Positions 21,867 to 56,120 of a DNA stretch of 64,000 bases are shown here, in pieces. A program made the translations under genes and the position numbers. Every line of letters starts with the position of its first letter. Position 1 is the first letter of the stretch. The notes under the pieces are model-generated. The model had not been told where the DNA came from and did no database searches. It saw nothing but the letters and a program-made list of their open reading frames with translations. Origin of the DNA: a virus; IMG/VR virus record IMGVR_UViG_3300029985_000017, positions 1 through 64,000 of that record; one strand, given 5' to 3'.

Positions 21867-21875
21867 GTAAAGATT
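21867..21875 (-). promoter_or_regulatory. AATCTTTAC motif
   Basis: Reverse-strand AATCTTTAC lies across the stop of the HNH-Mom gene and about 97 nt before the next gene start at 21770. It would allow that gene to be transcribed independently of the inserted nuclease gene. Confidence 0.5.
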
Positions 21876-25119: not shown

Positions 25120-25974
25120 TTATTTAAGCAGGTGACTAATACTGTTAACGTTGACTTTGCTGCCCAGATAAAATGCGTTAATTGCATCTCTATCAGATTT
25201 TTTAAGACTAGGATCTGCTGTCTTAGCCTTAAGAATTTCATGGATTTCCTTATCAGAAAGCTTCTTTTCTTCAGTGTGCGCTTCCGATTTTTGGATAACG
25301 TCCAATGAATTGATTGCTTTACCTTGAGGCACTGTCTTTTTAGCAAGTGCCGTCAAGAACTCCTTAATTGCTGCTTTTTCAGCTTTTTCAGCTGCTAATT
25401 CAGACTTAAGAAGTTCCATTTCTGTGTTTTCTGATTTTTCCATTTGCATTCCTTCTGCCTTACTAGCTGGTGATTTAGCACCAGGACCGTCCTTAGGCGC
25501 ACAAGCAGACTCTTCGCCACCACTTTTGTGGCCTGCATCTCCCATGTCCTTAGGCTTTTCGGCCTTTTCCATCTCGGCTGGCTTTTCTTCAGATTTACCC
25601 ATACACTTTTGAATACAACCATGATGAGCAGCTAGTTCACCTTTTGACATTGAGCGATACATTTTTTCCATGTGCTCCATGTCTTCGGCATCGTAGTCAT
25701 GGCCTTGATGCTCTTCGCCTTCTTTGCCATGCTCTTCATGTGATTCTTTACCTTCTTCATGATGCTCTTCAGAACTGTGTTCCTTGGCTTCATGTTTAGG
25801 TTCTTCTTTATGTTCAGGCTTTTCTTCGTGCTCTTTATGCTCTTCTTTATGGTCTTTTTCACCATCTTCAGATTTAGCAAGAGAGCTAGATTCTGACTTA
25901 GCAAGCTGAGAGGTAAACGCTTCTTCTACCTGAGCGATAAGATTTGCGACATCTTTTTCGGTATAACGTTGCAT
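25120..25974 (-). CDS. probable scaffold/prohead core protein, KSE-rich
   Basis: The 284-residue protein is extremely charged. A His/Glu/Lys-rich low-complexity middle (residues about 38-100) is flanked by helices, with a C-terminal domain ending in HLLK. It contains KSE six times (LAKSES, LAKSED, GKSEEK, EKSENT, LKSELA, QKSEAH). A charged helical protein encoded directly before the major capsid gene is the usual position of a scaffold. The KSE sites may be processing points for the prohead protease. AGGAG precedes the ATG. Confidence 0.65.
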   Translation of the reverse strand: MQRYTEKDVANLIAQVEEAFTSQLAKSESSSLAKSEDGEKDHKEEHKEHEEKPEHKEEPKHEAKEHSSEEHHEEGKESHEEHGKEGEEHQGHDYDAEDMEHMEKMYRSMSKGELAAHHGCIQKCMGKSEEKPAEMEKAEKPKDMGDAGHKSGGEESACAPKDGPGAKSPASKAEGMQMEKSENTEMELLKSELAAEKAEKAAIKEFLTALAKKTVPQGKAINSLDVIQKSEAHTEEKKLSDKEIHEILKAKTADPSLKKSDRDAINAFYLGSKVNVNSISHLLK

Positions 25975-30541: not shown

Positions 30542-31393
30542 TTGGCTGATTATACCCAATCTCGAAGTTTTAAAACTGCCACTTATCCGGTCCATGCCAT
30601 CCAAACTTCTGGATTGCTTAGACGTGTGGAACCATTTCTTACTCCGGAATTATTTCATAGTAGATATCTAAAAGGTATTCCAATTATATTTCCTGAGCAA
30701 CGATTCACACCGGACGAACTCAAAGACCGTATCATGATGGCAATGAATGAAACTGAAGCTCAAATCGGAACTACAGTTACGAGAGAAGAATTTGTAGACA
30801 AACTTCCATTTGATTGGTCACTTTATAAAAGTTTTATTCATATTAAACCAAGGCATTCTCCTATTCTAAGTTTAGAAAGCTTGGCTATTGTTGCTTCAAA
30901 TGATGAGATTATTTTTCAAGTCCCAAGTGTTTGGTGTGATATGGCCAACGCATCTATTGGACAGATTAATGTTATACCACTTCTTGCAGCTTTTGGTGCA
31001 ACTAATGCAAGTGGAACTCCTATAACTGCACTTAACCAAGGTGCTGGCATTGCCTTTCTAGCGATTTGGGGTGCCTCTGGCGCTACTACACAAGTACCAA
31101 GTTATTGGCAAGTGACCTATTCAAGTGGACTTTCCAATACAGAAGGACAAGTTCCAGTTATAGTAAACCAACTTATTGGAACTAATGCCGCTATTAATAT
31201 TATTTCTCAAATTGCTCAAATGTTTTTGTATACCTCTCAAGCTCAAAGTCAAGATGGATTATCTCAGTCTTCTTCTCTTCTTGGCCCTCGTTCTTTTCAA
31301 CTTCGTTTAGAAGAACTAATTAAAAATCGTGATGAATTAATAGCTAAAATTAAAGGTATATTTGCCAAGAAATATGTAATTGGGGAGTACTAA
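30542..31393 (+). CDS. putative head-tail connector protein, TTG start
   Basis: An AGGAGT site lies 5 nt before TTG at 30542, and no better start exists, so initiation at TTG is likely. The 283-residue protein has an N-terminal helix-rich part (TPDELKDRIMMAMNETEAQIG), a middle with FIHIKPRHSPILSLESLAI and a C-terminal basic helix (LIKNRDELIAKIKGIF). The layout resembles neck or connector proteins of myoviruses. Its last base overlaps the next start. Confidence 0.65.
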   Translation: MADYTQSRSFKTATYPVHAIQTSGLLRRVEPFLTPELFHSRYLKGIPIIFPEQRFTPDELKDRIMMAMNETEAQIGTTVTREEFVDKLPFDWSLYKSFIHIKPRHSPILSLESLAIVASNDEIIFQVPSVWCDMANASIGQINVIPLLAAFGATNASGTPITALNQGAGIAFLAIWGASGATTQVPSYWQVTYSSGLSNTEGQVPVIVNQLIGTNAAINIISQIAQMFLYTSQAQSQDGLSQSSSLLGPRSFQLRLEELIKNRDELIAKIKGIFAKKYVIGEY

Positions 31394-33021
31394 TGTCTCT
31401 TCGTAAAAGTCTTTTAGCAGCTTTAAGATACGATTCTCTTCAGAAGGCCGAAAAAGCTAAATTAGGAGAAGGTGTACACGATATATACAAAGAGCGTGCA
31501 GCTAAAGGTGGAGATATTCTCTGGTATGCCACTGTAAAGGGACAAAAAGAGTTAACACCCGGAATACCCTTACATATGTCTTTAAAAGTATTTGAAGATA
31601 AAAAAGACATGGATTTAGATAAAATTAAAGAAAAAATAAAAAAATTCGATATAAAAACTCCTAAACCAGAAAAATTGAATTTTAAAACAACTATTTTTAC
31701 ATCTGAACGAGATGGCAAAAAATATTATATGTTGTTAATTAGTGGAACAGATAAAACTTATTCTGATTTTTACGAAGCATTTAAACATACTGGAACTGTT
31801 TATAAAAAGTTTATGCCTCATATCACTATTGACAAAGGATTATACGATAAAATTAATAAAGAAGGTTTAAAACCAGAAGAAATTACTTTTAGTGATCTCA
31901 GTATTGAAGCAGGAGCAGGAAACACCATTCATTCTTTTGAAAAATCTGAAGGTTTAAATAAATCTGAAAATGCTTCTATTCCTACAGCGCATATTCCAGT
32001 TCACCATAATGAATTTCACCAGCATTTAGGAAATGCCATCACAAATAACTCTAAAGTTAAAGAGTTTGTCCATCATTATCAACCCCATGAATATTCTAAA
32101 ATGAAAACTTTTTTACATCCTGATAAAAAAAGCGGATTTGCAGTTAAACCAGATGGAGATATAGTTAGTGTATTCAGTACCGAAAAGGGTCGGGGAGATC
32201 AAATTGTACAGCATGCAGTTAAAGCGGGTGGCAATAAATTAGATGCTTTTGATGGCTATTTACCTAAACTGTATGCTAAACATGGATTTAAAGAAACACA
32301 CAGAGAAAAGAATTGGACTCCTGGTGGTCCTGATGTAGTTTATATGAAATTGCACCACAATGATATTAAAAAATCTGAAGAAAGTTCTATTATTAAAAAT
32401 AAATATAATGAAAAATTGAATAAATCAGAAAAACAAATTAATCCCGGTGATTATGGTAATGTAAAACCTCATATTGGTCATAAAGAAATGAAAAATATGG
32501 GTAGAAACTATAAAACTCTAGATTTCCATCCAAAACAAAGCATCCTTCATAGAAAACATTCAGAAGCGGCTAAAACAAAAGGTGATCATAATTTATCAGA
32601 AAAACATGCCAAAATGGCTCAAATGCACGATCATTATGACACAGCCAATCATTTTGGACCACATTCAACAGAACATTATAATGATAGAAGAAATGCTTTA
32701 AAAGAACATACAGATAAAGCCAAAAAACTTCATATAGAATTGAGTAAATCTGAATTTTTTCAGAAATCTGAAGCTCTTTTTTCTATTATCGTCAAAGAAA
32801 CTATCTCTTTAAATCCAGATTTATTTGAGCACAAAAAAGCACTTAGACTTAATGGTGAAGATTTTACACATTATCTTCAAGACAATCCTGATCTTAAAGA
32901 AATAGCTTTAAAAAAGCATGAAGATCGCGCTAAACATCATTTTGGAGATGATCTTATTTTAATCAATGTAGCTTTGAAAAAAGGTATTCAAGAAGCATAT
33001 AAGGCAAAAAGAGGAAAATAA
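31393..33021 (+). CDS. 2H phosphoesterase-GNAT-like multidomain head protein
   Basis: The protein has 542 residues. Residues about 40-180 carry the two signature motifs of 2H phosphoesterases, His61-Met-Ser63 (PLHMSLKV) and His143-Ile-Thr145 (MPHITID). Residues about 230-335 form a GNAT-like region (SGFAVKPDGDIVSVFS, GRGDQIVQHAV, LPKLYAKHGFKE). Then follow a His/Lys-rich helical domain homologous to one in the protein at 40988, and KSE motifs (seven). Enzymes of the 2H class cleave 2',3' or cyclic-oligonucleotide phosphodiesters; phage Acb1 is an example. Being in the head/neck operon, it may be packaged or virion-bound. Confidence 0.8.
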   Translation: MSLRKSLLAALRYDSLQKAEKAKLGEGVHDIYKERAAKGGDILWYATVKGQKELTPGIPLHMSLKVFEDKKDMDLDKIKEKIKKFDIKTPKPEKLNFKTTIFTSERDGKKYYMLLISGTDKTYSDFYEAFKHTGTVYKKFMPHITIDKGLYDKINKEGLKPEEITFSDLSIEAGAGNTIHSFEKSEGLNKSENASIPTAHIPVHHNEFHQHLGNAITNNSKVKEFVHHYQPHEYSKMKTFLHPDKKSGFAVKPDGDIVSVFSTEKGRGDQIVQHAVKAGGNKLDAFDGYLPKLYAKHGFKETHREKNWTPGGPDVVYMKLHHNDIKKSEESSIIKNKYNEKLNKSEKQINPGDYGNVKPHIGHKEMKNMGRNYKTLDFHPKQSILHRKHSEAAKTKGDHNLSEKHAKMAQMHDHYDTANHFGPHSTEHYNDRRNALKEHTDKAKKLHIELSKSEFFQKSEALFSIIVKETISLNPDLFEHKKALRLNGEDFTHYLQDNPDLKEIALKKHEDRAKHHFGDDLILINVALKKGIQEAYKAKRGK

Positions 33022-33022
33022 T

Positions 33023-33505
33023 ATGAATTTACAGCCAGACGATATTGATCAAATCGAAGATGCCGGTATCCTTGATGGAAGACCAGTCAAACTCGCAAGA
33101 ACAAAAGGCGGATTCTGGATGGGCATCTGCAATGGTAAAGTTCTATCAGGTGGCTCTCATCCAGCTATTGTAAAACATACAATTTCTAAAATGCATCCAA
33201 ACTTTCAACCTGTAATGTGTAAATCTGAAGCGTTCTCAGATGCCATTGTAGAAAGACATTCTCATTTTCTTTCAGATGACTTGCGCAAATCTGGGCACGA
33301 TATTTATTCTATTCAAAATGCTCAAGATATTGAATTTCAGATCACTAAAAATAATCTAAAAATATCCTCTGTTTTTGGTGTTATTCAAGACGAGTCTTTA
33401 ATTATTAAAGAAATTAACTTTCCGAAACAATTCTCCAGAGCTATGGCTGGAGCAACCACTGAAAAAGCTTTAAGCTGTAACAGTAAGAGTATTAAGGTCA
33501 AATAA
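33023..33505 (+). CDS. hypothetical virion-operon protein, 160 aa
   Basis: It begins 1 nt after the previous stop. The first 60 residues form a compact domain (DGRPVKLARTKGGFWMGICNGKVL, GGSHPAIVKHTI). A CKSE motif follows and then a beta-rich C-terminus. Function unknown; it shares the KSE tripeptide with other structural proteins. Confidence 0.65.
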   Translation: MNLQPDDIDQIEDAGILDGRPVKLARTKGGFWMGICNGKVLSGGSHPAIVKHTISKMHPNFQPVMCKSEAFSDAIVERHSHFLSDDLRKSGHDIYSIQNAQDIEFQITKNNLKISSVFGVIQDESLIIKEINFPKQFSRAMAGATTEKALSCNSKSIKVK

Positions 33506-33506
33506 T

Positions 33507-33698
33507 ATGAGTGCAGAATCAACAAATAAAAAAGTCATTGATGTTAAAATCTTCAAAAAAAACAAGAAGATAAAAAAAGATGAAGCGGTAGATGATATAA
33601 TAAATAAGTTGGTTCTATTGCATAAATCCGCTGATGATGGATTGAAAGAATTGGCTCAAATGTGTTGCTGCGAGGATAAAGACGAAGATGGCAGATAA
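33507..33698 (+). CDS. hypothetical lysine-rich protein, 63 aa
   Basis: A short protein with a Lys-rich N-terminal half and a helix ending in MCCCEDKDEDGR. It overlaps the next gene by 11 nt. No recognised family. Confidence 0.55.
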   Translation: MSAESTNKKVIDVKIFKKNKKIKKDEAVDDIINKLVLLHKSADDGLKELAQMCCCEDKDEDGR

Positions 33699-34713
33699 AA
33701 AACCGGAAGGCTCACAGCTTCCTACTATCATACCTTTTGCACCTTACGTTCAAGAATCTTTTGATTTGAATCGTTCGGATGCCTTTGTTAAAAGCCTTGG
33801 CACGGAATTTGTACATTGGAAAGCCACTCCCAGCCCAATTGGACTAAATGATCGTGGGGACTACCGTAGAAATAATGAAGTTGATGTAATCACCTCAAAT
33901 GGCTATGTTTATAGCCTCGGCGGTAAACTCACAGGCACAATGACAAATAATCAAAAAGATCAGGTTAGGCCTTCTGAGGGCGCTTTAATTGACGCCTCGA
34001 CTGCCTACTTGGTTCTGCCTAGATTTTATGATGATGCTTCTGACGCCCCATTCAATGGAAATGGATCATCTGGAAGTGGTAATTGCAATGATTGCTCAAG
34101 TGAAACAAATAAGATGGGTGGCTGCGAAGACGACGCGGGAGCTTTATCCAAAAAAAGAATCTATTTGACTCCAGGCGACAGGCTCTATCATGGCGATAAG
34201 CAAGCTAATGATCTTGTTGTCAATAAAGAATTAATGACCTTTTCTTATGATAGCGCTAATGTTCCAATGTATCCGATAGTTCAAATGGACGCACCTTTGA
34301 TTGATTCCAGGGGCATTAGATATACTCAAGGAACTGATTACAATATAGATTGTAGTGGGAATATACTTTGGACTCTTGGAGCAGCTAACCCCGGCATAGA
34401 TCCCAATACTGGCGAGGGTAGAACTTATAGTATCAGGTATCTATATCGTGCTTTTTATTATGTAAGTCGCATACTTAGAGAAGTTAGAATCACCGATGTT
34501 ACGGTTGGCAATGTAAGAAAATCTGAAAGAATGCCATATTATGTGGAGGTAGTCCGAGAATATTTATTCCATAATATTAATAAAGGCGATTTGACCAATC
34601 CTCCAGCTTCTCCTGCAGTAGCTAATAGACAAACAGTACAACCCACAGAAACTATTGAAATAAATCAGGGTATAGTTCGCGTGGAAACTACGGATATTTT
34701 AAACGATAATTAA
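33688..34713 (+). CDS. neck/structural protein, 341 aa
   Basis: The protein has no signal peptide. It has beta-rich N- and C-terminal parts separated by a Gly/Ser/Asn/Cys linker (residues about 128-150), and a segment ITDVTVGNVRKSERMPYYVEVVREYLF that looks like the tail-contacting helix of neck proteins. It lies between head-connector and decoration-like genes. Function by context only. Confidence 0.65.
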   Translation: MADKKPEGSQLPTIIPFAPYVQESFDLNRSDAFVKSLGTEFVHWKATPSPIGLNDRGDYRRNNEVDVITSNGYVYSLGGKLTGTMTNNQKDQVRPSEGALIDASTAYLVLPRFYDDASDAPFNGNGSSGSGNCNDCSSETNKMGGCEDDAGALSKKRIYLTPGDRLYHGDKQANDLVVNKELMTFSYDSANVPMYPIVQMDAPLIDSRGIRYTQGTDYNIDCSGNILWTLGAANPGIDPNTGEGRTYSIRYLYRAFYYVSRILREVRITDVTVGNVRKSERMPYYVEVVREYLFHNINKGDLTNPPASPAVANRQTVQPTETIEINQGIVRVETTDILNDN

Positions 34714-34720
34714 GACGAGT

Positions 34721-34729
34721 AATCTTTAA
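34721..34729 (+). promoter_or_regulatory. AATCTTTAA motif
   Basis: AATCTTTAA, 26 nt before the ATG at 34756, in a 42-nt intergenic gap. Candidate late promoter inside the structural operon. Confidence 0.5.
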
Positions 34730-34755
34730 GAAAAGATAAGGAAAAACGGTGACTT

Positions 34756-35247
34756 ATGGCTAATCCAAGCAATCCAATCATGAAACGTAACTTCCCTGGC
34801 AATAAAACCCAGGATCCAGGCGCGATTGATATGCTTCAATATAATAATGCTGCCGGAGCACGCAAATCCATGAACATGGGTCAGCATTTGTTGCCTCTCG
34901 CGGTTCCAGGAGTTGGAAACGGATATACCACCAATGCTTCTTCGGCTCCATACGCTCTTCCAGGTGCTGGTAAATCTGTTGCTGTATATAACAACTCCGG
35001 CTCTATGGGGGCTATCGTTCTTGGAACAAGCAGTTCAATTACCGCTTTGTCTGCAGGGGCTACAGATTCAAATGGAAATGTTGGCCTTCCATGCCCACCT
35101 AATTCTTGGACTACCTTTGCCTCTGGTTATGCTAATTGGATAATTACTAGTGCCTCTACCCTTCTTGTATTTTTAGTAAATGATGAAACTAGTATCACTC
35201 CAGTAGCTAATCCATTAGTTAGTAACCCTAATTTTCCTAATTTGTAA
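34756..35247 (+). CDS. probable abundant structural protein, 163 aa
   Basis: A Ser/Gly/Asn-rich beta protein with its own late-type motif. The strand pattern (KSVAVYNNSGSMGAIVLG, TFASGYANWIITSASTLLVFLV) is like small capsid-decoration or tail proteins. It lacks KSE motifs and signal peptide. Which particle part it belongs to is not clear. Confidence 0.65.
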   Translation: MANPSNPIMKRNFPGNKTQDPGAIDMLQYNNAAGARKSMNMGQHLLPLAVPGVGNGYTTNASSAPYALPGAGKSVAVYNNSGSMGAIVLGTSSSITALSAGATDSNGNVGLPCPPNSWTTFASGYANWIITSASTLLVFLVNDETSITPVANPLVSNPNFPNL

Positions 35248-35250
35248 TAT

Positions 35251-36180
35251 ATGAAAAAGAATGCTAAGACCTTCCTAGATAAAACTTTAGGAAGTGACTT
35301 TTTAGAGTCGCTTGGCACTTCTTTGTCAAAATCTGAAGTATATAAACAAGGTACTAGAACTGTTACAGATACAGATGATCTATTCCAAGGTTTGCAAATT
35401 GTACCTAGGGCATTGTTGAGTTTATTGGTTCGTGAATTATCCCCCATGCAAATTGGGGAAACTAAAGAAATTAGAATTCCTGGAAAAGAAGACACTATAG
35501 TTTCAGCTACAAAACATGAACGTGATTCATATTCTGGACAAGTAATACAAAATAATGTTAAAATAAATGATTTTTTGCATCGCTCACTACCTGGTCTTGG
35601 ATTAGTCTTAATGACCATGCTAGAATTGTATGATTTTGAAGATCTTGAAAAAAAGCCTTCTATTCATCAAGATAAACAAGCACAAGTTCAAAAAATAATT
35701 GACGATCGAATGCAACTCCATTCCCTTGTTAATCAGGTTGTAGATGGTAAAATGCTACAACGTGACGCCATAAATCAGTTACTTATGAGTAAATTGACAC
35801 AATTATTGCATGAACATGAACAAATTAAAGAAGACCATAAAGAAATTATGGCTGAAGCACCTAAAGAAAAGTCTCCAGTAGTTATAGTTTTAAAACCACA
35901 AAAAAAGTCTCTACCTCTTGCCAGTTTCGTAGAAAATAGAAAAAAGAAATTAACAAAGAAAGAATTTTTGGTAGATATTTGTAAGGGAGAAACAAGAGAA
36001 TGCCCAGATTGTGGGCATACTGTTTTTGATGGTTCCGGCCTCTCAAGCTGCATATGTTTTGGCGACTCTAAAAAAGTTTTCTTAAAAAAGACTGAAACTG
36101 GCATTAAGTTATCTTTTAGCCGCCAATGGGATGCAGAGAATATCTCTATGCTATTAGAAGTCTTGAGGAGCAAGTCATGA
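35251..36180 (+). CDS. structural-operon protein with C-terminal zinc ribbon
   Basis: The protein has 309 residues: an N-terminal part with SLSKSEV, a central helical part (VNQVVDGKMLQRDAINQLLM) and a C-terminal ribbon CPDCG...SSCIC at about 250-270. It overlaps the HNH gene start by ATGA. It could be a small-terminase-like or head-packaging adaptor, but no defining motif is seen. Confidence 0.65.
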   Translation: MKKNAKTFLDKTLGSDFLESLGTSLSKSEVYKQGTRTVTDTDDLFQGLQIVPRALLSLLVRELSPMQIGETKEIRIPGKEDTIVSATKHERDSYSGQVIQNNVKINDFLHRSLPGLGLVLMTMLELYDFEDLEKKPSIHQDKQAQVQKIIDDRMQLHSLVNQVVDGKMLQRDAINQLLMSKLTQLLHEHEQIKEDHKEIMAEAPKEKSPVVIVLKPQKKSLPLASFVENRKKKLTKKEFLVDICKGETRECPDCGHTVFDGSGLSSCICFGDSKKVFLKKTETGIKLSFSRQWDAENISMLLEVLRSKS

Positions 36181-36677
36181 AAACTTGCAAAACCTGTAAA
36201 TTAGAAAAAGAAGATAGTTCTTATAGAATTTCTAAAAAAACAAAGAAACTTTTAAATCCTTGTTTTGACTGTAGAAAAAACATAAAAGAAGAATATAACA
36301 AAACTCATTTAGAAATTAATAATGCGACAAAAGATGCTTGGAAATTAAGAAATATAGATAAAGTAAGAGCCGCGAAAAAAAAATGGAAAGAAGAAAATAT
36401 AGGGAAAGTAAAAGCCGATAGGGCACGTAGAAAATTTCGCATAGAACAGGCAACACCTAAATGGCTTAGTTCTCAACAAATAGAAGCCATGGAATTCTTT
36501 TATTTATGGGCTGATCTTAGAAGTAAAAGCGGTGTAAAATATCATGTAGATCATATTATACCCATAGCAGGAAAAGATGTTTGCGGTCTCAATGTACCGT
36601 GGAATTTAGAAACTCTTAAAGAAGAAGAAAATCTTAAAAAAAGAAATAAATTGCTTTGGTGGAGGACAAATGGATAA
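36177..36677 (+). CDS. HNH homing endonuclease
   Basis: The 166-residue protein starts with CKTCKLEK and CFDC pairs (zinc ribbon), has a basic helical linker and ends with an HNH core (VDHIIPIAGKDVCGLNVPWNL). The linker-to-HNH stretch (QATPKWLSSQQIEAM) is clearly paralogous to the HNH-Mom protein at 21874. It is a free-standing insertion between structural genes, overlapping the upstream gene by ATGA and the downstream gene by 8 nt. Confidence 0.88.
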   Translation: MKTCKTCKLEKEDSSYRISKKTKKLLNPCFDCRKNIKEEYNKTHLEINNATKDAWKLRNIDKVRAAKKKWKEENIGKVKADRARRKFRIEQATPKWLSSQQIEAMEFFYLWADLRSKSGVKYHVDHIIPIAGKDVCGLNVPWNLETLKEEENLKKRNKLLWWRTNG

Positions 36678-38376
36678 TTCTAATACGTTCTTCGTATCTT
36701 TCGATGCAGATGACGCTGGCAGAAGAATAGGGCAAGCTATTTTAAATGATGACCCAGATTCTCTTAGGGATGCTTCACAAAAAATAGATCACGGTAACGA
36801 AATCGTAGCACAATGGGCACAAAAATATAATGGCGTACAGTACTCCTCTGGAGGAGATCAGGGTGTATGGTTAGTTCCAGTTGAAGCATTGCAGGAACTA
36901 GAATCCCTACGTAAAGACTATGAATTTGCTACTGGAATGACCATTTCAATAGGTGTTGCTGATACTCTTAGTGGCTCAGGAAGAAGTTTATTAGTCGCTA
37001 AAGTTAAAGGTAAAAACCAAATAGTTTTTTATGGTCCAGAAATAGAAAAAGAAATTCAACAAATTACTGAGAATGTTAGATCTGGACACGGTTCTTCAGA
37101 GGAACAAAAATTAGCAGAATCATATATAGAACCTACTCAGCATTCAGAGGCTTCCGATGATGATGAAGGCGTTGGACATGACCAAGTTCTTCCTACCGGT
37201 GCCGATGCTGCTCAAAATGAGCCTACTTTGTGTGAACCACCAAAAGACGATAATAATCGCGGCTATGATTCTGGATATAAAAATTCCGATGTAGAAGAGC
37301 GTAGGGATTCATATCAAGCTCAAGATCTAACGCCTCCTATTATTAGGAAACCAAACCTTACTCCTAAGCCTCGAGTGGAAGAAAGTTTTTCAACCGATAT
37401 ACCTGAAAGCGATAGAGTTATGAATAATGACCTACCTGATCCAAAAGATATGCCAGCAAAAGACTTAAAACCAGCCCCAAAAGACTATCATGGACAAGCG
37501 GAAGGTGCTCCCCCAGCTCCAGAAGGTTTGGCACAACCTATGCAAGGTAAGCCTAGCGACCTTAAATATAATGGCAATGACGAAAAGGGAATTCAAGAAC
37601 CCGACATGCCTAGGGAAAATGCTACTACGGATGAAGCCGAACAAACCGAAGAAAGTGATATGCTGGGAGATGATAAACATTGCCCTAGCTGCACCTGTGG
37701 CGCTCATGGGGATTCTGCAGAAGACACTTTAGATCAACACGTAGACAATGCTCAAGATTTCGCAGACGCTATTGGCAATGAACAAGAAGAAGATAGTGCT
37801 GAAGACACACTAGATGCTCATGTTAGTAATGCTAGCGAAATGAATGATGACATGGATGAAAACGGTGTTAGTCGTCCTGCTGATTACGATCAAAGAAATG
37901 AAGATATGGGTCTATCAGAAGAAGATGCTGATGACTCTAATTTAAACGACGTATTTAAAGATGGTTTAGATGCTCATGCAGACAGTATTCAACGTGAAAA
38001 AGTTGTTAATATGGTTGGTGAAGCTCTAGAAGCTTTCAAAGGCCAGAAAGCCATATTGGACAAAGCTAAAGCACAAGCCCCAGAACTTTATGATGCTTGT
38101 ATAGCCATGCTAAGAAGTATGATCGAACTTTGCTCGTTAGCTGGTATTGATGAAGGTCAAGCTGAGCAAGAAGTAAACGAAATCGAAGGCCAAAGTAAAG
38201 CTCCCGAAGAAGCTTCTGGTGAAGAAGGCGAAGGGTTTATACCTGAATCTGAAGATAATGGAGCTGAATCTGAAGAAGCCCCTGAATCAGAAGAAGGCGA
38301 ATCATGCCCTACTTGCGGAACACCACATGAAAAAGAAGCAGCTCCAGGAGGGGCTGCTCCATTCCCAAAAAAGTAA
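36670..38376 (+). CDS. GGDEF/mCpol-like palm-domain protein with acidic tail
   Basis: The protein has 568 residues. Residues 7-130 look like a nucleotidyl-cyclase/polymerase palm: FFVSFDADDAGRR (Asp12/Asp14 metal site), YSSGGDQGVWLVP (GGD at 61-63 in place of GGDEF or GGDD), and TISIGVA ... LLVAKVKGKNQIVFY as at the end of GGDEF domains. The rest is acidic and low in order, with Asp/Glu repeats, a CPSCTCGAHG cluster and a repeated (E)DTLD(Q/A)HV(D/S)NA motif. Such palm domains make cyclic dinucleotides in signalling or defence. The stop is preceded by a dnaX-like slippery site, so a 642-residue form is predicted. Confidence 0.75.
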   Translation: MDNSNTFFVSFDADDAGRRIGQAILNDDPDSLRDASQKIDHGNEIVAQWAQKYNGVQYSSGGDQGVWLVPVEALQELESLRKDYEFATGMTISIGVADTLSGSGRSLLVAKVKGKNQIVFYGPEIEKEIQQITENVRSGHGSSEEQKLAESYIEPTQHSEASDDDEGVGHDQVLPTGADAAQNEPTLCEPPKDDNNRGYDSGYKNSDVEERRDSYQAQDLTPPIIRKPNLTPKPRVEESFSTDIPESDRVMNNDLPDPKDMPAKDLKPAPKDYHGQAEGAPPAPEGLAQPMQGKPSDLKYNGNDEKGIQEPDMPRENATTDEAEQTEESDMLGDDKHCPSCTCGAHGDSAEDTLDQHVDNAQDFADAIGNEQEEDSAEDTLDAHVSNASEMNDDMDENGVSRPADYDQRNEDMGLSEEDADDSNLNDVFKDGLDAHADSIQREKVVNMVGEALEAFKGQKAILDKAKAQAPELYDACIAMLRSMIELCSLAGIDEGQAEQEVNEIEGQSKAPEEASGEEGEGFIPESEDNGAESEEAPESEEGESCPTCGTPHEKEAAPGGAAPFPKK

Positions 38377-38403
38377 CGCCAGGGTCTGAAGAGGCTGCTG
38401 GCG
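38346..38403 (+). promoter_or_regulatory. programmed -1 frameshift signal
   Basis: Three elements stand in order: an internal Shine-Dalgarno-like AGGAGGGG (38346-38353), the heptamer A AAA AAG in the correct frame (38367-38373) directly before the TAA, and a stem-loop CGCCAG/CTGGCG (38377-38382 with 38398-38403). This is the architecture of the bacterial dnaX frameshift. A -1 shift opens a frame running 74 codons to 38597. Confidence 0.75.
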
Positions 38404-38597
38404 GCGGCGTGGGATCAATAAAAAAGTTACCTACTAAGAATAGTACCCCACATATTGCCAAAGAAACTACGCCAGTTGGTGGAATTAATGCTAAGGGCCA
38501 AAAACGTTATAAAGATCCTACAACTGGTAAGGACGCCTATATCAACATGAAAAATGGTATGGTAATGGGACCTAGGGGTATTCCTGTTAAGGGCTAA
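38373..38597 (+). CDS. -1 frame extension of the palm-domain protein, 74 aa
   Basis: This frame is open from the slippery site to TAA at 38595-38597 and encodes a Gly/Ala linker followed by a basic domain (KGQKRYKDPTTGKDAYINM). There is no ATG. The only internal start is GTG at 38409, 14 nt after a weak GAGG, which would give a 62-aa protein. Frameshift fusion (568 + 74 residues) is the better explanation. The basic tail contrasts with the acidic body and could provide virion or nucleic-acid binding. Confidence 0.65.
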   Translation, partial: VTPGSEEAAGGGVGSIKKLPTKNSTPHIAKETTPVGGINAKGQKRYKDPTTGKDAYINMKNGMVMGPRGIPVKG

Positions 38598-38598
38598 T

Positions 38599-39465
38599 AT
38601 GATTAATATCAAATTAGATCCTTCATCACTTTTAGAAGCATGTAAAGAATCTTACAATGAAGTTAAGAAAGCCTTAACCAAATCTGTGACTAAACTTGCT
38701 AGTGCTGCAGAGACCCATTTGATCGAATTAACAAAAGAAGAATTAAATTCTCATCAATATAAAATGTTTGTGGGTGGAGACGATATGAAAAATATCGAAT
38801 TAACATCGCCAGATCCAAATGTTCATATTCTAACCATTAAAAATAAAGCGGTTCTTATAGATAATGGCGAAAGAATGGACATGAAAACCGATGATTGGCT
38901 TTTTAGTAGCTCCAAAACTAAAACTGGTAAAAAGGGTAAATATTTAGTTATTCCTTTTCAGCATGCTGAAAAAAATTCTAAATCTGAATCTGCAACTAAT
39001 AGACTTAAAATAGAACTTACCAATAGAATAAAAGAAGAACTAGATTTTCAAAATAGAAAAAGAAAAGCTAAAAAGCAACGCTCTATAAGCGTTGGTGGAA
39101 TAGAACGTTACCAAGAAGACTCTATGGGTCACAAAAAAGGCGAAATCATAGAAGGTAAACTTCATGAGTTTAACATCTTTGGCAGCAAGAAAAAGTCTCA
39201 TTGGTCAGATATGCCTTTAACCAGAGTAGGTGTTTATCAAAAGATAAAAAGAGATGATCAAGGAAATCCTGTCACGGATAAAAATGGCAAAGTAAAAGCT
39301 ATTCGTTCTTGGATGACCTTTAGAACTGCTTCAGAAGGGTCCCCAGATAAATTTTGGTATCCAGCACCTAAAACCAAAGATTTTTTAGCTAGAACTGGTG
39401 ATTGGGTTGAAAAAGAATTTTATGAAAACATAGTCCCAAATATCTTAAAAGAGTGGAAGGACTAA
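38599..39465 (+). CDS. HK97 gp10-like head-tail joining protein
   Basis: The 288-residue protein has an N-terminal helix and a middle basic region, and ends with WMTFRTASEGSPDKFWYPAPKTKDFL, a long helix, and NILKEWKD. This ending is characteristic of gp10-like tail completion or neck proteins, where a WxTFRT..G...W.hPg motif precedes the final helix. It contains one KSE. It starts 1 nt after the frameshift product ends. Confidence 0.75.
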   Translation: MINIKLDPSSLLEACKESYNEVKKALTKSVTKLASAAETHLIELTKEELNSHQYKMFVGGDDMKNIELTSPDPNVHILTIKNKAVLIDNGERMDMKTDDWLFSSSKTKTGKKGKYLVIPFQHAEKNSKSESATNRLKIELTNRIKEELDFQNRKRKAKKQRSISVGGIERYQEDSMGHKKGEIIEGKLHEFNIFGSKKKSHWSDMPLTRVGVYQKIKRDDQGNPVTDKNGKVKAIRSWMTFRTASEGSPDKFWYPAPKTKDFLARTGDWVEKEFYENIVPNILKEWKD

Positions 39466-39468
39466 TTT

Positions 39469-40497
39469 ATGGGCGGTATATTTCAAACAGATGTTTTATT
39501 AAAAACGATATTAGAAGAATGGTTAGAAGACATTAAAAATAATCTATGGCTTTTAGATCATATTTTAGAAGATTTTGTTGATAGTCCATTACTTAGAACT
39601 AAATATGGACAAAAACAAATTCAGGCTGCTAAAGAGTACTTTACCAACAATAATGTAAATATATTTAATCAATTTGTTAAAGATAAAGATAAATTTCCAT
39701 GCATAGTATTAACTCTAGGCTCTTCAAATGAAGTTCAAGAGATGCGTACACTTGGAGATATAGATACACCTACAATTAATTTTTTACCACCAAATCTGGT
39801 GGGACAGAAGATACCTTATGTAGTTCCTCCATTTATTCCTTCTAGCTACGAGGCATCTACCGGTATAGTAACAGCCCCCATTGGTGTGGATATAGAGCCA
39901 GTGACTGCAGGCATGATTTTACTCAACCCAACTACTGGAACGGGTACTCCAGTTTTAAGTATTAATGGCCAAGAAATTTATGTTCAACCAAATGTACAAT
40001 TGGATACTAGTCAACTTGGAGTTGTACCACAGTACAGATTTTTCCAATCTAGACTAGGAAGAAGTTTCTTCGAAGAAAACTGGAATATTACGATCGCCAC
40101 AAATGATCCCCAATCTCTTCTATGGCTGTGGTCAATCGTGACCTATGGACTTTTAAGATATAGGGAGTACATGGAGCACAATGGGTTATTAGAAACACAT
40201 TTTAATAGTACAGATATTTTTAATCCCGAATTCTCTAATGCTGGTGCGGAAGAAATTTATTGTCGTCAAATAACCATGGCTGGCAAAGTATACAATAACT
40301 TTATCAGAGGACTGCATAGAAAAATTGAATCGGTAATACTTAGAGATACTAATCCTGCAGCCATCACTTTATCGGATCCATCAGGTTATGTAGGCGGAAT
40401 TAAATTCGTTTCAAATCAAGAGACTCCACCTGCACAGCAGAATCAAACTAATTGGTTTACCGTAACTCAAGCTGAAGATGAGGCAAATGAAGATTAA
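39469..40497 (+). CDS. tail completion/neck protein, 342 aa
   Basis: The N-terminal 100 residues resemble tail-terminator-type proteins (a helix, then FPCIVLTLGSSNEVQEM). A long insertion is followed by a second domain with SFFEENWNITIATNDPQSLLWLWSIVTYGLLRYREY, a pattern of myovirus tail-completion proteins such as T4 gp15. It has a location between gp10-like and sheath genes. The exact role is inferred from context. Confidence 0.65.
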   Translation: MGGIFQTDVLLKTILEEWLEDIKNNLWLLDHILEDFVDSPLLRTKYGQKQIQAAKEYFTNNNVNIFNQFVKDKDKFPCIVLTLGSSNEVQEMRTLGDIDTPTINFLPPNLVGQKIPYVVPPFIPSSYEASTGIVTAPIGVDIEPVTAGMILLNPTTGTGTPVLSINGQEIYVQPNVQLDTSQLGVVPQYRFFQSRLGRSFFEENWNITIATNDPQSLLWLWSIVTYGLLRYREYMEHNGLLETHFNSTDIFNPEFSNAGAEEIYCRQITMAGKVYNNFIRGLHRKIESVILRDTNPAAITLSDPSGYVGGIKFVSNQETPPAQQNQTNWFTVTQAEDEANED

Positions 40498-40500
40498 ATC

Positions 40501-40509
40501 AATCTTTAT
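40501..40509 (+). promoter_or_regulatory. AATCTTTAT motif
   Basis: AATCTTTAT ends 8 nt before the ATG at 40518, in the only gap upstream of that gene. There is no ribosome binding site, so a leaderless start is possible here too. Confidence 0.45.
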
Positions 40510-40517
40510 CTATATCT

Positions 40518-40919
40518 ATGCCATATAAATCAGATTCACAGCGCAGATGGGCTCACACCGAAGCAGGTAAAAAAGCTTTAGGCGGTGAGGCCAATGTACA
40601 TGAATGGGATGAGGCCACTAAAGGCAAAAAACTCCCTGAAAAAGTCAAAAAATCTGAAAATCTTACAAAATCCGTGCCAACTCCCCCAAAACTAGGCTCT
40701 ACCCTTGGTTCTACTTTAAGTGCTCCCCAAAATCAACCAAAAGATATTTCTAAGGCCGGTAAGCAAAACGTAACCGCTAAAATATCTAAGCCCAAAAAGC
40801 CAGGTGACGCTTTTGCTCCTCCCAGTGTCTTTTTTGGTAAATCCGAAGATTTTAATGGTCCTAAACACCCAAGTACGCGAAGACTATGGGATTTTATAAC
40901 AAAAAAACATAAAAAGTAA
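40518..40919 (+). CDS. small basic protein with MPYKS-RRW N-terminal domain, KSE motifs
   Basis: The first 45 residues (KSDSQRRWAHTEAGKKALGG, VHEW, KGKKLPEKV) match a short domain common in phage genomes, sometimes fused to structural proteins, function unknown. The rest is Lys/Pro/Ser-rich and disordered, with two KSE motifs. It may be packaged inside the head. Confidence 0.7.
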   Translation: MPYKSDSQRRWAHTEAGKKALGGEANVHEWDEATKGKKLPEKVKKSENLTKSVPTPPKLGSTLGSTLSAPQNQPKDISKAGKQNVTAKISKPKKPGDAFAPPSVFFGKSEDFNGPKHPSTRRLWDFITKKHKK

Positions 40920-40958
40920 TAAAATCAATAAGTTAAAGGGTATAAAAAAATCAGAACT

Positions 40959-40967
40959 AATCTTTAA
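40959..40967 (+). promoter_or_regulatory. AATCTTTAA motif
   Basis: AATCTTTAA, 20 nt before the ATG at 40988, followed by a GGGAG ribosome binding site. Candidate late promoter in a 68-nt gap. Confidence 0.5.
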
Positions 40968-40987
40968 GAAGACAGGGAGTTCCTTTT

Positions 40988-42607
40988 ATGGCAGATGACA
41001 ACAAAAAGCTATTTACACCTCGTGAAGCTGCGCAAGCTGTGTTAGCTAAGACCTATGAGCTATTGTCTAAATCTGAAACTTTAAATAAATACGAGACAGA
41101 AAATCGTAAAGCACCCGGCGTTAAATACGGTAAAATTGAAAAAGATCAAAAACCTATTGAACGTGATTATCCAGAGTATGAAGTAAAGTCTGCGAGTTTT
41201 AAAGACTCTTCAGGAAAACGTCTTGAAAGGCAAGTTTCTCCAAGTGGTAATCCAAAAGAGGAAGCTGAAGGAAATAATAACGTAGACGGCATGGAACCAC
41301 GTTATGAATTTAAAGATAAAGTTAAGGGCGATCTAGCCAAAGAAAATGCCCAGCATATGGTTAAGTCTCAGTCAGGCATGCATACGGTTACATATAAAAT
41401 GCACAAAGCCGAAGATAAAGCTATGCCAAAACCCGATTTGGGTAAAGCTGAAACTGGACATGAAAAAGATGCTGAATTAGTGAATAACAATTATAAAAAA
41501 GAAAGAGCCCCAAACTTAAAAATGCCTAAACATAGAGAGACTAAACCAAAACTATCCCATGAACAAATGATGAATGTTAGCTGGGAGAAGCATAATTTGG
41601 CGGGCAATGTGCATAAAGAACATGCAAAAAAGTATCCAGAAAGTATTCCAGAAGCTAAGGCTATCAATGACAAACATAAAAAAGCTGCAGAGATGCATCA
41701 TGCATATTCTACAGCCAAAGCTAGTTTTCCAGATTACGATTATGAAAAATCTAATAGAGTAAAAAAAGAAGCTACTGAAAAAGCAAAAAAGCTTCATGAG
41801 GATCTTTCATCGATGGAAACTAGTGGCCATAAGGTTGGCCATGCGATAGAACATAAAAAATCAGAATCCAATATTTGCGATCTACATAAATCTGGCGAAC
41901 ATCAAATGCCTAAGCCCCATGCTTCTCATGAAGATATGATGAAGATGCCAAAAAATGCGCATGAAGAAAAAAGAGATTTTCATAATTCCGCTGAATCTAA
42001 AGAAGACAAGCTTCCACAAAATCCAGATAAAGAAGCTGATGCCGAACTTGGTGAAAAAGTAGAGCACGACGTAGAAGATCATTTTAAAGAAAATCAGGAA
42101 GCCGAAGCTAAAGAAGGACATGAACTCATGGCTAAACCAGAGAATAAATCTGAAAGTGAAACTGAAAAGTCCGTTATTCCTCGTTTAGTTCTTTCTGCTA
42201 AACTAAGCAAGTTTATGGAGCATATGCATTCTAAACGTAAAAATGCCGAAGCTCAATCGCCACAAGCCGTTGGCCATGAAGCCACTGACGCTCCGGCTCC
42301 TAGATCTACTGAAGCTGGACAGCCAATTGAAAAACGTGAAGGAGAAAGAGGAATACATCTTCCTCATTCTGAAACGGATATCGCTCCAGGATCTAAATTA
42401 AAGGGCGATATGGGCCAAAGCGGTGTGGGCTCTGATGTTCGCGATATGAAAAGGGATATAAAGCATCTTTCAAATAAAAAAACTAAGGGCGCGGATCGCA
42501 GAGAAACCATAGAACATCATGATATTAATAGAAATAGGGCAATAAATGAGCACAAACAAGTTCTTAGTGATATGAAAGCCATGCCGAAACCAAAGCTTCC
42601 AGGATAA
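40988..42607 (+). CDS. large charged structural protein, KSE and PKPxL motifs
   Basis: The 539-residue protein is mostly low complexity, rich in Lys, Glu, His and Ala. It contains three KSE motifs, two MPKP(D/K)L motifs also found in the prohead-protease protein at 54344, and a helical His-rich domain (about 195-275) homologous to one in the protein at 31393 (both share the block AKKLH near its end). It could be an internal head protein or scaffold cleaved on maturation. No enzyme motif is seen. Confidence 0.7.
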   Translation: MADDNKKLFTPREAAQAVLAKTYELLSKSETLNKYETENRKAPGVKYGKIEKDQKPIERDYPEYEVKSASFKDSSGKRLERQVSPSGNPKEEAEGNNNVDGMEPRYEFKDKVKGDLAKENAQHMVKSQSGMHTVTYKMHKAEDKAMPKPDLGKAETGHEKDAELVNNNYKKERAPNLKMPKHRETKPKLSHEQMMNVSWEKHNLAGNVHKEHAKKYPESIPEAKAINDKHKKAAEMHHAYSTAKASFPDYDYEKSNRVKKEATEKAKKLHEDLSSMETSGHKVGHAIEHKKSESNICDLHKSGEHQMPKPHASHEDMMKMPKNAHEEKRDFHNSAESKEDKLPQNPDKEADAELGEKVEHDVEDHFKENQEAEAKEGHELMAKPENKSESETEKSVIPRLVLSAKLSKFMEHMHSKRKNAEAQSPQAVGHEATDAPAPRSTEAGQPIEKREGERGIHLPHSETDIAPGSKLKGDMGQSGVGSDVRDMKRDIKHLSNKKTKGADRRETIEHHDINRNRAINEHKQVLSDMKAMPKPKLPG

Positions 42608-42611
42608 TAGT

Positions 42612-42878
42612 ATGGCTAAACAAGAATTTGAAAATAAAGAAATGTCCCTAGAAGAATCAAAAGCTTATCGTGCTTCTCTGTATAAAGAAGTTAAAAAGAC
42701 TCTTACTCAAAAACAAAAACGCGATGCTTTTAAGATTTATTGGACAGAAAATAAAAAGAAATACGGAATGACTGGAAAATTAGAGCAAGTCCTTTGGTTG
42801 CATCTAGTTAGCACTGGGAATGATAGTCCTGAGAATTTTGCTAAGGGACTACAAAATTTTGGAATTAAGAAAGTTTAA
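42612..42878 (+). CDS. hypothetical protein preceding the sheath gene, 88 aa
   Basis: A basic helical protein (LEESKAYRASLYKEVKKTL, then FKIYWTENKKKYG) starting 4 nt after the previous stop, with weak ribosome binding site. The next gene is the tail sheath. Function unknown. Confidence 0.65.
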   Translation: MAKQEFENKEMSLEESKAYRASLYKEVKKTLTQKQKRDAFKIYWTENKKKYGMTGKLEQVLWLHLVSTGNDSPENFAKGLQNFGIKKV

Positions 42879-42892
42879 TAGGGAGAAATCAC

Positions 42893-45052
42893 ATGTCGCA
42901 AAGACTATCCACGACGTTCGTTAATACTAATGTTCCAGGAACATATGTTAATTATTCAGTACTTACGCAGCCTGTTGGGGTTACTTCCTCAGGTATAGCG
43001 GTTATCATGGGCGAAGCCGATGGTGGACCTAGCTTTAGCCAAACTACTTTAGCTGCTAGCCTTTATACGCCATCTCAGCTTCAGCAAATGACCCAAGTTT
43101 ATACTAGTGGTCAACTTGTTGACGGCTTTACGGCATTGTGTTCTCCTTCGAATGATGCTAATATCACGGGAACTGCTACTCAGATCTACGTTGTTAAAAC
43201 CAATACCGGTACTACAGCTACCGCTACCCTGCCTTCTTATGGTGACCTTAGTTACCTTAATTATGGTATTTTAGGCAATCAAACTCAGTATCAAGTTCTA
43301 TCTACGGCTGCAGAAGTTGCTCCTACGGTTACCGGGACCACGATCCCTGCTTTTGGAGCCCCTTTGAATGGCGCTAGTTTTACTATTCGTCTAAACGGTG
43401 GTGTTAGCCATATTATTACTTTGAGCGCAACGCCTTCTCTTCATAATAGCATTTCTACCTTGGTCACAGAACTTAATACTCTTTTAGTTGCTGTAACCGC
43501 TGCTCCTACCGGAATCACGGCTTCTCCAGGTACTCCTTTGAATACCCTCACTCTAACTGTTGGTGCTGATTCAAATGCTTATAGCGAAGGATGGGGAAAA
43601 TCGTTTGAATTGATTGATTCTACTCCCGGTGACTTGGCTGCTTTAGGTCTATCCCCAGGACTTACGATTTCTTCACAAGAAGCTGAAATTGAACAACAGA
43701 ACAGTAATTCTACTACCGGTACTAGTGAAACTCTAGCCGTTAACTCACAAATTGCTTTGTTGGTAGGTTATCAAGGTACTTCAGCAACTATCACTATTAC
43801 CAACGTGGCTTTAACTACGGCAGTAGTAGGTGGCGCTGGTATTGGTCTTAGTTTGACCTTAAGTGAATATTCCACGATTGGTCTATTGGCTTCCTTCATC
43901 AATTCTCAACCAGGATATACGGCGGCAGCTCTTCCTGCGGCTAGCAGCCAACCAGCAACTTCATTGGATGCTGTATCTGCTCAAGGAATTTGTTCTACCG
44001 AATCAGAACTTACACCAGGTAGAATTAAAATTGCTTTAGCTAATTATGAACAAGCTATGACTACTTCTAGGTTGCTTGCTTTTTCACCTACGGCAAGCGC
44101 TGGACTTCCGGCTCCTACGTCTGCTCCAGCCTATCTTGCTGGTGGCAGCAGAGGACCAACTTTGGCTATAGATATTGTGGATGCGCTTACGCTTCTTCAA
44201 AGTGTTAATTGTAATATCATTGTTCCATTGTTTTCTCAAAATGCTTCAGCAGATATCGCTGCCGGTCAAACGGATCCAAATTCAACCTACACGATTGCTG
44301 CAATTGATGCTCTATTGAAGAGCCATTGTTTGGAAATGAGCAACCCAAGTTTGAACAGGAATCGTATTTGTATCTTGTCAAATCTTGGCACATTTGCTGC
44401 AGCTGCTGCAACAGCTCAGACTTTGGCAAGCGATCGTTGTTCATTGACTTTCCAACAGGTAACGCAGGTTAATTCAACTGGAGTGGTCACGACCTTCCAG
44501 CCGTGGTATGCTGCATGTGTCGCAATGGGAATGCAACTTGGTGGTTTCTATAAAGCGATTGTTGGAAAATACGCTAATGTTATTAGCATTATCGATCCAT
44601 CAGATTACAATAACGGGAATCCAGGGGACACAAGCGAAGCTCTAACTGCTGGTTTGTTGCCATTGTATGAAGACGTTGGCGGCCCTAAGTGGGTTAGCGA
44701 TCAAACGACCTATAGCGTTGATGACAATTTCGTATACAATTCAATTCAGGCTATGTATGATGCTGACTTGATTGCTATTGACTTGAAATCTAGCTTCACG
44801 GATGCTTTCGTTGGTCAATCTCTTGCAGATGTTTCTGCTGCTTCAGCTTCAGCTTTCTTGACGCAAAAGATGGCTAGCTACATGCAATTGAAACTGATTG
44901 CTCCAAGCAATGGGGCTCCATTGGGATTCAACAATGCGAAGGTTTCCATTAACGCACCTACTATGACTATAGCGGTTAATATCTATCTTGCAACTGCGAT
45001 TTACTTTATTCCGATCAGCTTCACCATTTCAGCGGTTCAGCAATCGGCTTAA
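42893..45052 (+). CDS. tail sheath protein
   Basis: The 719-residue protein begins with the sheath-typical VPGTYVNYSVLTQPVGVTSSGIAVIMGEADGGP, contains insertion domains, and ends with a C-terminal domain with RNRICIL, a long helix region, FTDAFVGQSLADVSAASASAFLTQKM and final strands (VSINAPTMTIAVNIYLATAIYFIPISFTI) as in contractile tail sheaths. It forms the contractile outer tube around the tail tube encoded next. The presence of a sheath defines the phage as a myovirus. It has a GGGAG site. Confidence 0.88.
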   Translation: MSQRLSTTFVNTNVPGTYVNYSVLTQPVGVTSSGIAVIMGEADGGPSFSQTTLAASLYTPSQLQQMTQVYTSGQLVDGFTALCSPSNDANITGTATQIYVVKTNTGTTATATLPSYGDLSYLNYGILGNQTQYQVLSTAAEVAPTVTGTTIPAFGAPLNGASFTIRLNGGVSHIITLSATPSLHNSISTLVTELNTLLVAVTAAPTGITASPGTPLNTLTLTVGADSNAYSEGWGKSFELIDSTPGDLAALGLSPGLTISSQEAEIEQQNSNSTTGTSETLAVNSQIALLVGYQGTSATITITNVALTTAVVGGAGIGLSLTLSEYSTIGLLASFINSQPGYTAAALPAASSQPATSLDAVSAQGICSTESELTPGRIKIALANYEQAMTTSRLLAFSPTASAGLPAPTSAPAYLAGGSRGPTLAIDIVDALTLLQSVNCNIIVPLFSQNASADIAAGQTDPNSTYTIAAIDALLKSHCLEMSNPSLNRNRICILSNLGTFAAAAATAQTLASDRCSLTFQQVTQVNSTGVVTTFQPWYAACVAMGMQLGGFYKAIVGKYANVISIIDPSDYNNGNPGDTSEALTAGLLPLYEDVGGPKWVSDQTTYSVDDNFVYNSIQAMYDADLIAIDLKSSFTDAFVGQSLADVSAASASAFLTQKMASYMQLKLIAPSNGAPLGFNNAKVSINAPTMTIAVNIYLATAIYFIPISFTISAVQQSA

Positions 45053-56089: not shown

Positions 56090-56092
56090 AAC

Positions 56093-56101
56093 ATAAAGAT
56101 T
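56093..56101 (-). promoter_or_regulatory. AATCTTTAT motif
   Basis: Reverse-strand AATCTTTAT ends 3 nt before the ATG of the prohead protease at 56089, closer than the other copies. If it is a -10 element, the transcript would start inside the gene, which is a point against a pure promoter reading here. Confidence 0.4.
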
Positions 56102-56120
56102 ATTCTTAGTTTGTTTTAGA

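Follow-up and report, generated by a model that had tools for sequence, protein, structure and literature searches.

An mCpol-type nucleotidyl-cyclase palm domain on a virion-operon protein in a family of large phages

The locus and the phage family

In the 64,000-nucleotide stretch of viral DNA analysed here (hereafter, the window), which comes from a virus record of 163 kb, an open reading frame that starts with an ATG located 5 nucleotides downstream of a Shine-Dalgarno-like GGAGG encodes a protein of 568 amino acids (36670-38376; plus strand, as are its parts and the neighbouring genes from 31393 to 45052 described as such below). The protein consists of an N-terminal palm domain of the mCpol type that covers only residues 8-121 or thereabouts (36691-37032), an acidic linker with Cys motifs and a short C-terminal helical region (GLDAHADSIQREKV..QAPELYDACIAMLRSMIELCSLAG; 37942-38190) that is common to the family members without mCpol and is still recognizable in the ortholog from Myxococcus phage Mx1. 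Neither PHROGs nor PADLOC gave a match for the window protein; the PADLOC model CARF_HEPN_mCpol matches one relative (L020).

The surroundings of this gene bear out the preliminary description of the DNA, in which the domain was said to be encoded among structural genes. Directly upstream lies a gene that is conserved in the virion module of the family (35251-36180), and between the two, an HNH/endonuclease VII-like gene, a probable homing endonuclease, is inserted (36126-36677; matches to PHROGs of endonuclease VII and HNH). Downstream come a conserved gene that belongs to a PHROG of unknown function and is syntenic in the relatives including Mx1 (38599-39465), a tail-terminator-like gene with a weak match to SP10_terminator (39469-40497) and the tail sheath gene (42893-45052; PHROG 279, E=2e-26). 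The tail-terminator-like neighbour, employed as an independent bait, yielded 48 loci, and wherever these cover the stretch in question, a homologue of the mCpol gene is located between the homologues of 35251-36180 and 38599-39465. Thus, the mCpol gene lies just upstream of the tail terminator throughout a family of phages of approximately 150-175 kb that includes Mx1, in which the gene order is kept and which was the single annotated phage to turn up among the relatives; a scan with the Mx1 protein as the query found no relatives. In all loci examined, the neighbours are conserved virion genes, and neither S-2TM-beta (OptE) nor any other membrane effector is encoded next to the gene; the locus used for contrast with respect to effector neighbourhood, L103, is a bacterial operon. 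The arrangement is that of the polyvalent phage proteins, with an enzymatic domain fused onto a multidomain protein that is encoded among virion genes.

The 3' end of the gene shows an additional peculiarity. A small conserved C-terminal domain (KKLPTK..DPTTGK..GIPVKG), which is fused in frame in six relatives (L011, L020, L036, L040, L044 and L050) and in Mx1, is found in the window in the -1 frame, just past the stop codon (38409-38597), and the main reading frame ends with the dnaX-like slippery motif A AAA AAG followed by TAA (38367-38376), a candidate site of -1 ribosomal frameshifting. The resumption of this domain in a shifted frame past a stop is seen both in the window (38367-38597) and near mid-gene stops in L001, L003, L005, L007 and L008; the last four of these have an AGGAGGG...CCCCACA stretch in common, and next to it the domain lies in the +1 frame. 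The number of A AAA AAG motifs in the window is not above chance, and neither is the hairpin downstream of this one (z=-0.72). Programmed frameshifting is a possible route to the small domain, and it is also possible that the domain is started separately, as a small gene of its own.

Identity and active site of the palm domain

The N-terminal part of the protein (residues 1-130) is a nucleotidyl-cyclase palm of the mCpol type. The Pfam mCpol profile (PF18182) matches residues 8-121 from end to end with E=1.4e-9 and a score of 38.8 bits that exceeds the cut-off of 26.4, and the NCBIfam mCpol model (NF033576, cut-off 40), for which the window copy stays below the cut-off at 29.7, is passed by the relative L020 at 52.8. 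All 11 aligned relatives match mCpol, with a best E value of 9e-22, and a profile built from these 11 sequences retrieves both OptS sequences in the PDB at E=6e-15, with GGDEF proteins appearing only at E>=0.05. The AlphaFold2 model of the domain (mean pLDDT 94.2, pTM 0.87) is a palm, and the top six PDB matches in a Foldseek search are all mCpol/OptS structures, including 9mnr, 9pd0 and 9nwn (E 1e-9 to 1e-8, TM 0.78-0.89), followed by GGDEF and Csm1/Cas10 palms.

Two other classes of palm enzymes were considered. A GGDEF diguanylate cyclase was rejected: there is no Pfam GGDEF match at E<=1, the GGDEF structures rank below all mCpol structures, and the window sequence contains GGDQG in place of a full GG[DE]EF motif. 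The Cas10/Csm1 palm resembles the phage domain in its fold and its GGDD-like hairpin, and there is a weak match to the Pfam Cas10 palm2 profile (E 6e-4); however, this match is below the Cas10 cut-off, and the phage domain is a single palm without the remainder of Cas10. Accordingly, from the 'GGDEF/mCpol-like' palm postulated in the preliminary description, the palm itself and its mCpol component stand, on the strength of the profile match and of the structure prediction and fold comparison, and the GGDEF component falls. The motifs on which that description relied, FDADD (D12, D14), SGGDQG (D63) and KVKGKNQIVFY, are all present and are not due to chance.

The closest characterized relative is Panoptes OptS. 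The requirement of KpOptS for D6 and D57 and the recognition of the base by S30 and N34 are described in the Panoptes papers (PMC12657218, PMC12657230), with S30 given as the adenine-recognizing serine (PMC12657218). By alignment, D12 of the D12-A-D14 metal-site motif in strand beta1 (36703-36711) corresponds to D6, S36 (36775-36777) corresponds to S30, and D63, in the turn of the GGDQ hairpin (36850-36861; DSSP strands 56-61 and 64-70), corresponds to D57. In a first, pairwise alignment, D57 of KpOptS was set against Q64, which would have made the window site a dead one; this reading was discarded given that the profile and multiple alignments place D57 at D63. The phage and bacterial proteins share the palm fold, the Pfam family and these three residues but differ in context. 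OptS is a stand-alone bacterial defence enzyme of approximately 125 amino acids, with an AAD-G hairpin, encoded beside a 2TM-beta effector, whereas the phage form has a GGD[E/Q] hairpin and is part of a virion-operon protein of 410-840 amino acids without an adjacent effector.

We compared 28 phage mCpol domains, 23 of which comprise a canonical set with a mean pairwise identity of 43%. In this set, 13 columns are invariant (D12, D14, G17, S36, I39, G62, D63, G95, S101, L107, K111, G114 and K115), and they include seven of the eight residues for which a function is expected (hypergeometric probability 2e-7). That 13 residues, including D12, D14, S36, G62, D63, K111 and K115, are invariant at 43% identity implies that a working site is selected for; the dN/dS values of 0.07-0.15 for canonical pairs with unsaturated dS were obtained for the same set. 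The check on D12, D14 and D63 in close homologues that had been proposed along with the preliminary description thus came out in favour of conservation, and the degenerate site that it had allowed for is contradicted by the retention, in the window copy, of the counterparts of both D6 and D57. The Q of GGDQG, which is common to six members, faces a Gly in KpOptS and so need not matter, and S36 is invariant in the canonical members. Position 40, the equivalent of N34, varies among the phage domains, which counts against the favoured explanation given below. Judging by these alignments, we predict, with the same modest preference that we give to the explanation of the locus as a whole, that the mCpol domain of the window is catalytically competent.

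The site is altered or lost in some members of the family. A clade of four members carries SGDE in the hairpin and N in place of D12. In Mx1 (WNM70340), the ortholog with the same gene order and C-terminal modules, the active-site residues D12, D63 and K111 are replaced with S, A and Q, respectively, so by its sequence the Mx1 copy is a dead mCpol.

Loss and exchange of the mCpol domain and a 2H-phosphoesterase-like neighbour

In three relatives (L040, L044 and L050), the C-terminal part of the protein is kept, and a Cys-rich N-terminus takes the place of mCpol; mCpol is absent from the entire 170-kb record of L050. The window protein itself is a mosaic. Its N-terminal domain is 51-59% identical to the domains of L011, L039, L071, L054 and L012 and only 39-44% identical to those of the nearest phages, whereas the rest of the protein shows the opposite pattern, with 60-64% identity to the nearest phages and 29-43% to the former group. 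Most of the neighbours of the mCpol gene follow the C-terminal part in being closer to the nearest phages, and the gene tree and the domain tree disagree, in line with a domain swap. By these comparisons, the window acquired its mCpol domain through a swap with a distant lineage. Because it is lost in one clade, dead in Mx1 and swapped in the window, mCpol is an accessory of the protein.

The same virion operon encodes a second domain of interest. The N-terminal part (31393-31965) of a 542-amino-acid protein (31393-33021) contains two H-x-[ST] motifs (H61-x-S and H143-x-T), and its AlphaFold2 model (pLDDT 82.7) has a 2H fold: the top twelve PDB matches are all 2H enzymes, led by the rotavirus 2'-5' phosphodiesterase, the poxvirus cGAMP phosphodiesterase, a Burkholderia phage phosphodiesterase and phage Acb1, with modest scores (best E 4e-4, TM about 0.25-0.55); the best of these matches are thus nucleases by which viruses evade immunity. 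Both motifs are invariant in 17 phages, at a spacing of 82-83 residues, as is typical of 2H phosphoesterases, in which the two motifs are about 80 residues apart. There is no Pfam match for this domain. It shares the double motif and the fold with Acb1 and the viral 2H phosphodiesterases (the C-terminal domain of rotavirus VP3 and the poxvirus cGAMP phosphodiesterase) but differs from Acb1 in the lack of a match to the Acb1 profile (PF23474; 0 of 18 records) and in being followed by variable cargo domains; an assignment to Acb1 was rejected on the profile result. The cargo matches PHROG 2563 in the window and is a transglycosylase SLT domain in L011, and the interval from 30542 to 33023 has the appearance of a hotspot at which virion-borne enzymes are inserted. 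A role of the 2H domain in RNA repair is not favoured: the record that contains the window lacks an RNA ligase, and the presence of the ligase does not track that of 2H.

In most relatives, the 2H-like domain is encoded five genes upstream of the mCpol gene. The clade without mCpol is missing precisely this gene, and cleanly so, with the flanking genes abutting; the 2H gene has been swapped as well. Of 11 large records, the eight with a canonical mCpol all have 2H, and none of the three with a lost or altered one does (Fisher 0.006, a value that does not take phylogeny into account). On the tree, the loss of mCpol and 2H is a single co-loss event, with mCpol being older than 2H, and there are canonical mCpol domains without 2H (L052/L053, L055 and L057); for these two reasons, the link between the histories of the two genes that the gene contents point to is only suggestive. 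A sponge family of the Acb2/Tad1 hairpin type is found in three of the mCpol phages and is absent from the record that contains the window.

Possible roles of the phage mCpol

In bacteria, mCpol is a defence enzyme whose product, a decoy immune signal, is sensed by a guard effector. That mCpol is also conserved in a phage virion operon, with an intact active site and in a place that is fixed and yet open to swapping, turns this logic around. The explanation that we somewhat favour is that a competent, accessory mCpol carried on a virion-operon protein interferes with nucleotide second-messenger signalling of the host. As predicted from OptS, the domain would dimerize and bind two NTPs, at least one of them an ATP recognized via S36, with the metals held by D12, D14 and D63, and would make a cyclic dinucleotide, probably from ATP. 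The protein probably is made late and becomes part of the particle or is delivered along with it, and its product most likely would disturb host second-messenger signalling during infection, in an anti-defence role; in many relatives, the 2H domain from the same operon would degrade host signals. The link to nucleotide-based anti-phage defence drawn in the preliminary description is plausible, and the decoy or signal role envisaged there would be one form of it. The combination of mCpol on a virion-operon protein with, often, a signal-degrading enzyme nearby suggests that the virus both makes and destroys host immune messengers. Conceivably, then, a decoy-messenger synthase in the particle keeps guard-type immunity (Panoptes-like or related) silent, or jams it by competition at the effectors, and the phage hydrolase or an Acb2-type sponge clears the alarm signal; this paired make-and-destroy scheme is tentative, and we consider it somewhat unlikely in so specific a form.

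The hosts bear on the choice of the target. Two different phages of this family (L107 and L102) are found in one 'Deltaproteobacteria' metagenome-assembled genome (MAG) from a bog, which, taken with the existence of Myxococcus phage Mx1, gives a hint of the host group. Among 58 genomes of the phylum of this MAG, there is no mCpol beyond the phage copies, and CBASS cyclases (3 of 58) and Cas10 (2 of 58) are rare. These few genomes of putative hosts lack Panoptes, which makes the version in which the phage acts against Panoptes less likely, and the target may be a different one; this evidence is weak given that the binning may be wrong and that Panoptes is rare everywhere.

The rarity of signalling-based defence genes in this one sampled putative host phylum, along with the GGDEF proteins found in other phages by the fold search, would also fit host reprogramming, in which a cyclic dinucleotide (c-di-AMP, cGAMP or similar) alters c-di-NMP pathways and, through them, for example, motility or surface state, as phage-borne GGDEF enzymes do. 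We consider this unlikely: the mCpol family is known so far from defence contexts (PMC12657218, PMC12657230), and an arms race is the better match for both the domain swapping and the joint loss of mCpol and 2H. A palm that binds without turnover, as a nucleotide sponge or as a sensor of ATP or cyclic dinucleotides that controls assembly or ejection, would account for the persistence of the fold or its sequence signature in the clades whose site carries D12N or is gone, an observation that counts against a competent domain, and sponges are common among phage counter-signalling proteins; nevertheless, the strict invariance of the metal-binding and active-site residues in the 23 canonical domains is what catalysis predicts, and binding without turnover appears quite unlikely to us. 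Finally, a purely structural palm, which would serve a neck or head protein as its assembly module and would owe its enzymatic look to inheritance, would agree with the fixed position in the virion operon, including that in Mx1, and with the loss of D12 and D63 in the latter, but is improbable considering that natural members without the domain keep the remaining protein and that the active-site residues rank among the most conserved positions.

The favoured explanation, interference with host second-messenger signalling, has a precedent. In Iyer 2017 (PMC5512222), counter-signalling was proposed for GGDEF and 2H domains of packaged polyvalent phage proteins, in which a cyclic-nucleotide synthase domain is likewise part of a multidomain protein whose gene lies with those of the virion. 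As far as that text goes, the domains in question are GGDEF rather than mCpol, they are not very widespread, in contrast to the fixed gene of one phage family described here, and a pairing with 2H is not noted. A phage-encoded mCpol was not found in the main-text passages searched in the two Panoptes papers (PMC12657218, PMC12657230), and the literature searched yielded no paper that joins phages and mCpol. What is new here, beyond the known idea of counter-signalling by GGDEF and 2H domains, is the mCpol type of the domain, its fixed yet swappable place in one phage family, its conserved site and the co-loss with 2H. With the phage mCpol, it can be tested directly if phages oppose guard-type immunity by producing the messenger, not only by destroying it, and nature supplies the controls in the form of a dead version (Mx1), an altered one (D12N) and deletions (L040/L044/L050).

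Two minor observations concern the virion operon at large. The tripeptide KSE, at which the prohead protease of these phages possibly cleaves, is absent from the mCpol protein, a point against the favoured explanation, and is strongly enriched in the products of 25120-25974, 31393-33021, 40518-40919 and 54344-56212 (6, 6, 2 and 4 copies, respectively, versus 0.1-0.7 expected), often with copies directly after the 2H domain. In addition to the HNH-type gene at 36126-36677, the window contains homing-endonuclease-like genes at 21874-23595 and 56121-57239, and the sites of such insertions in the virion operon differ between the relatives.
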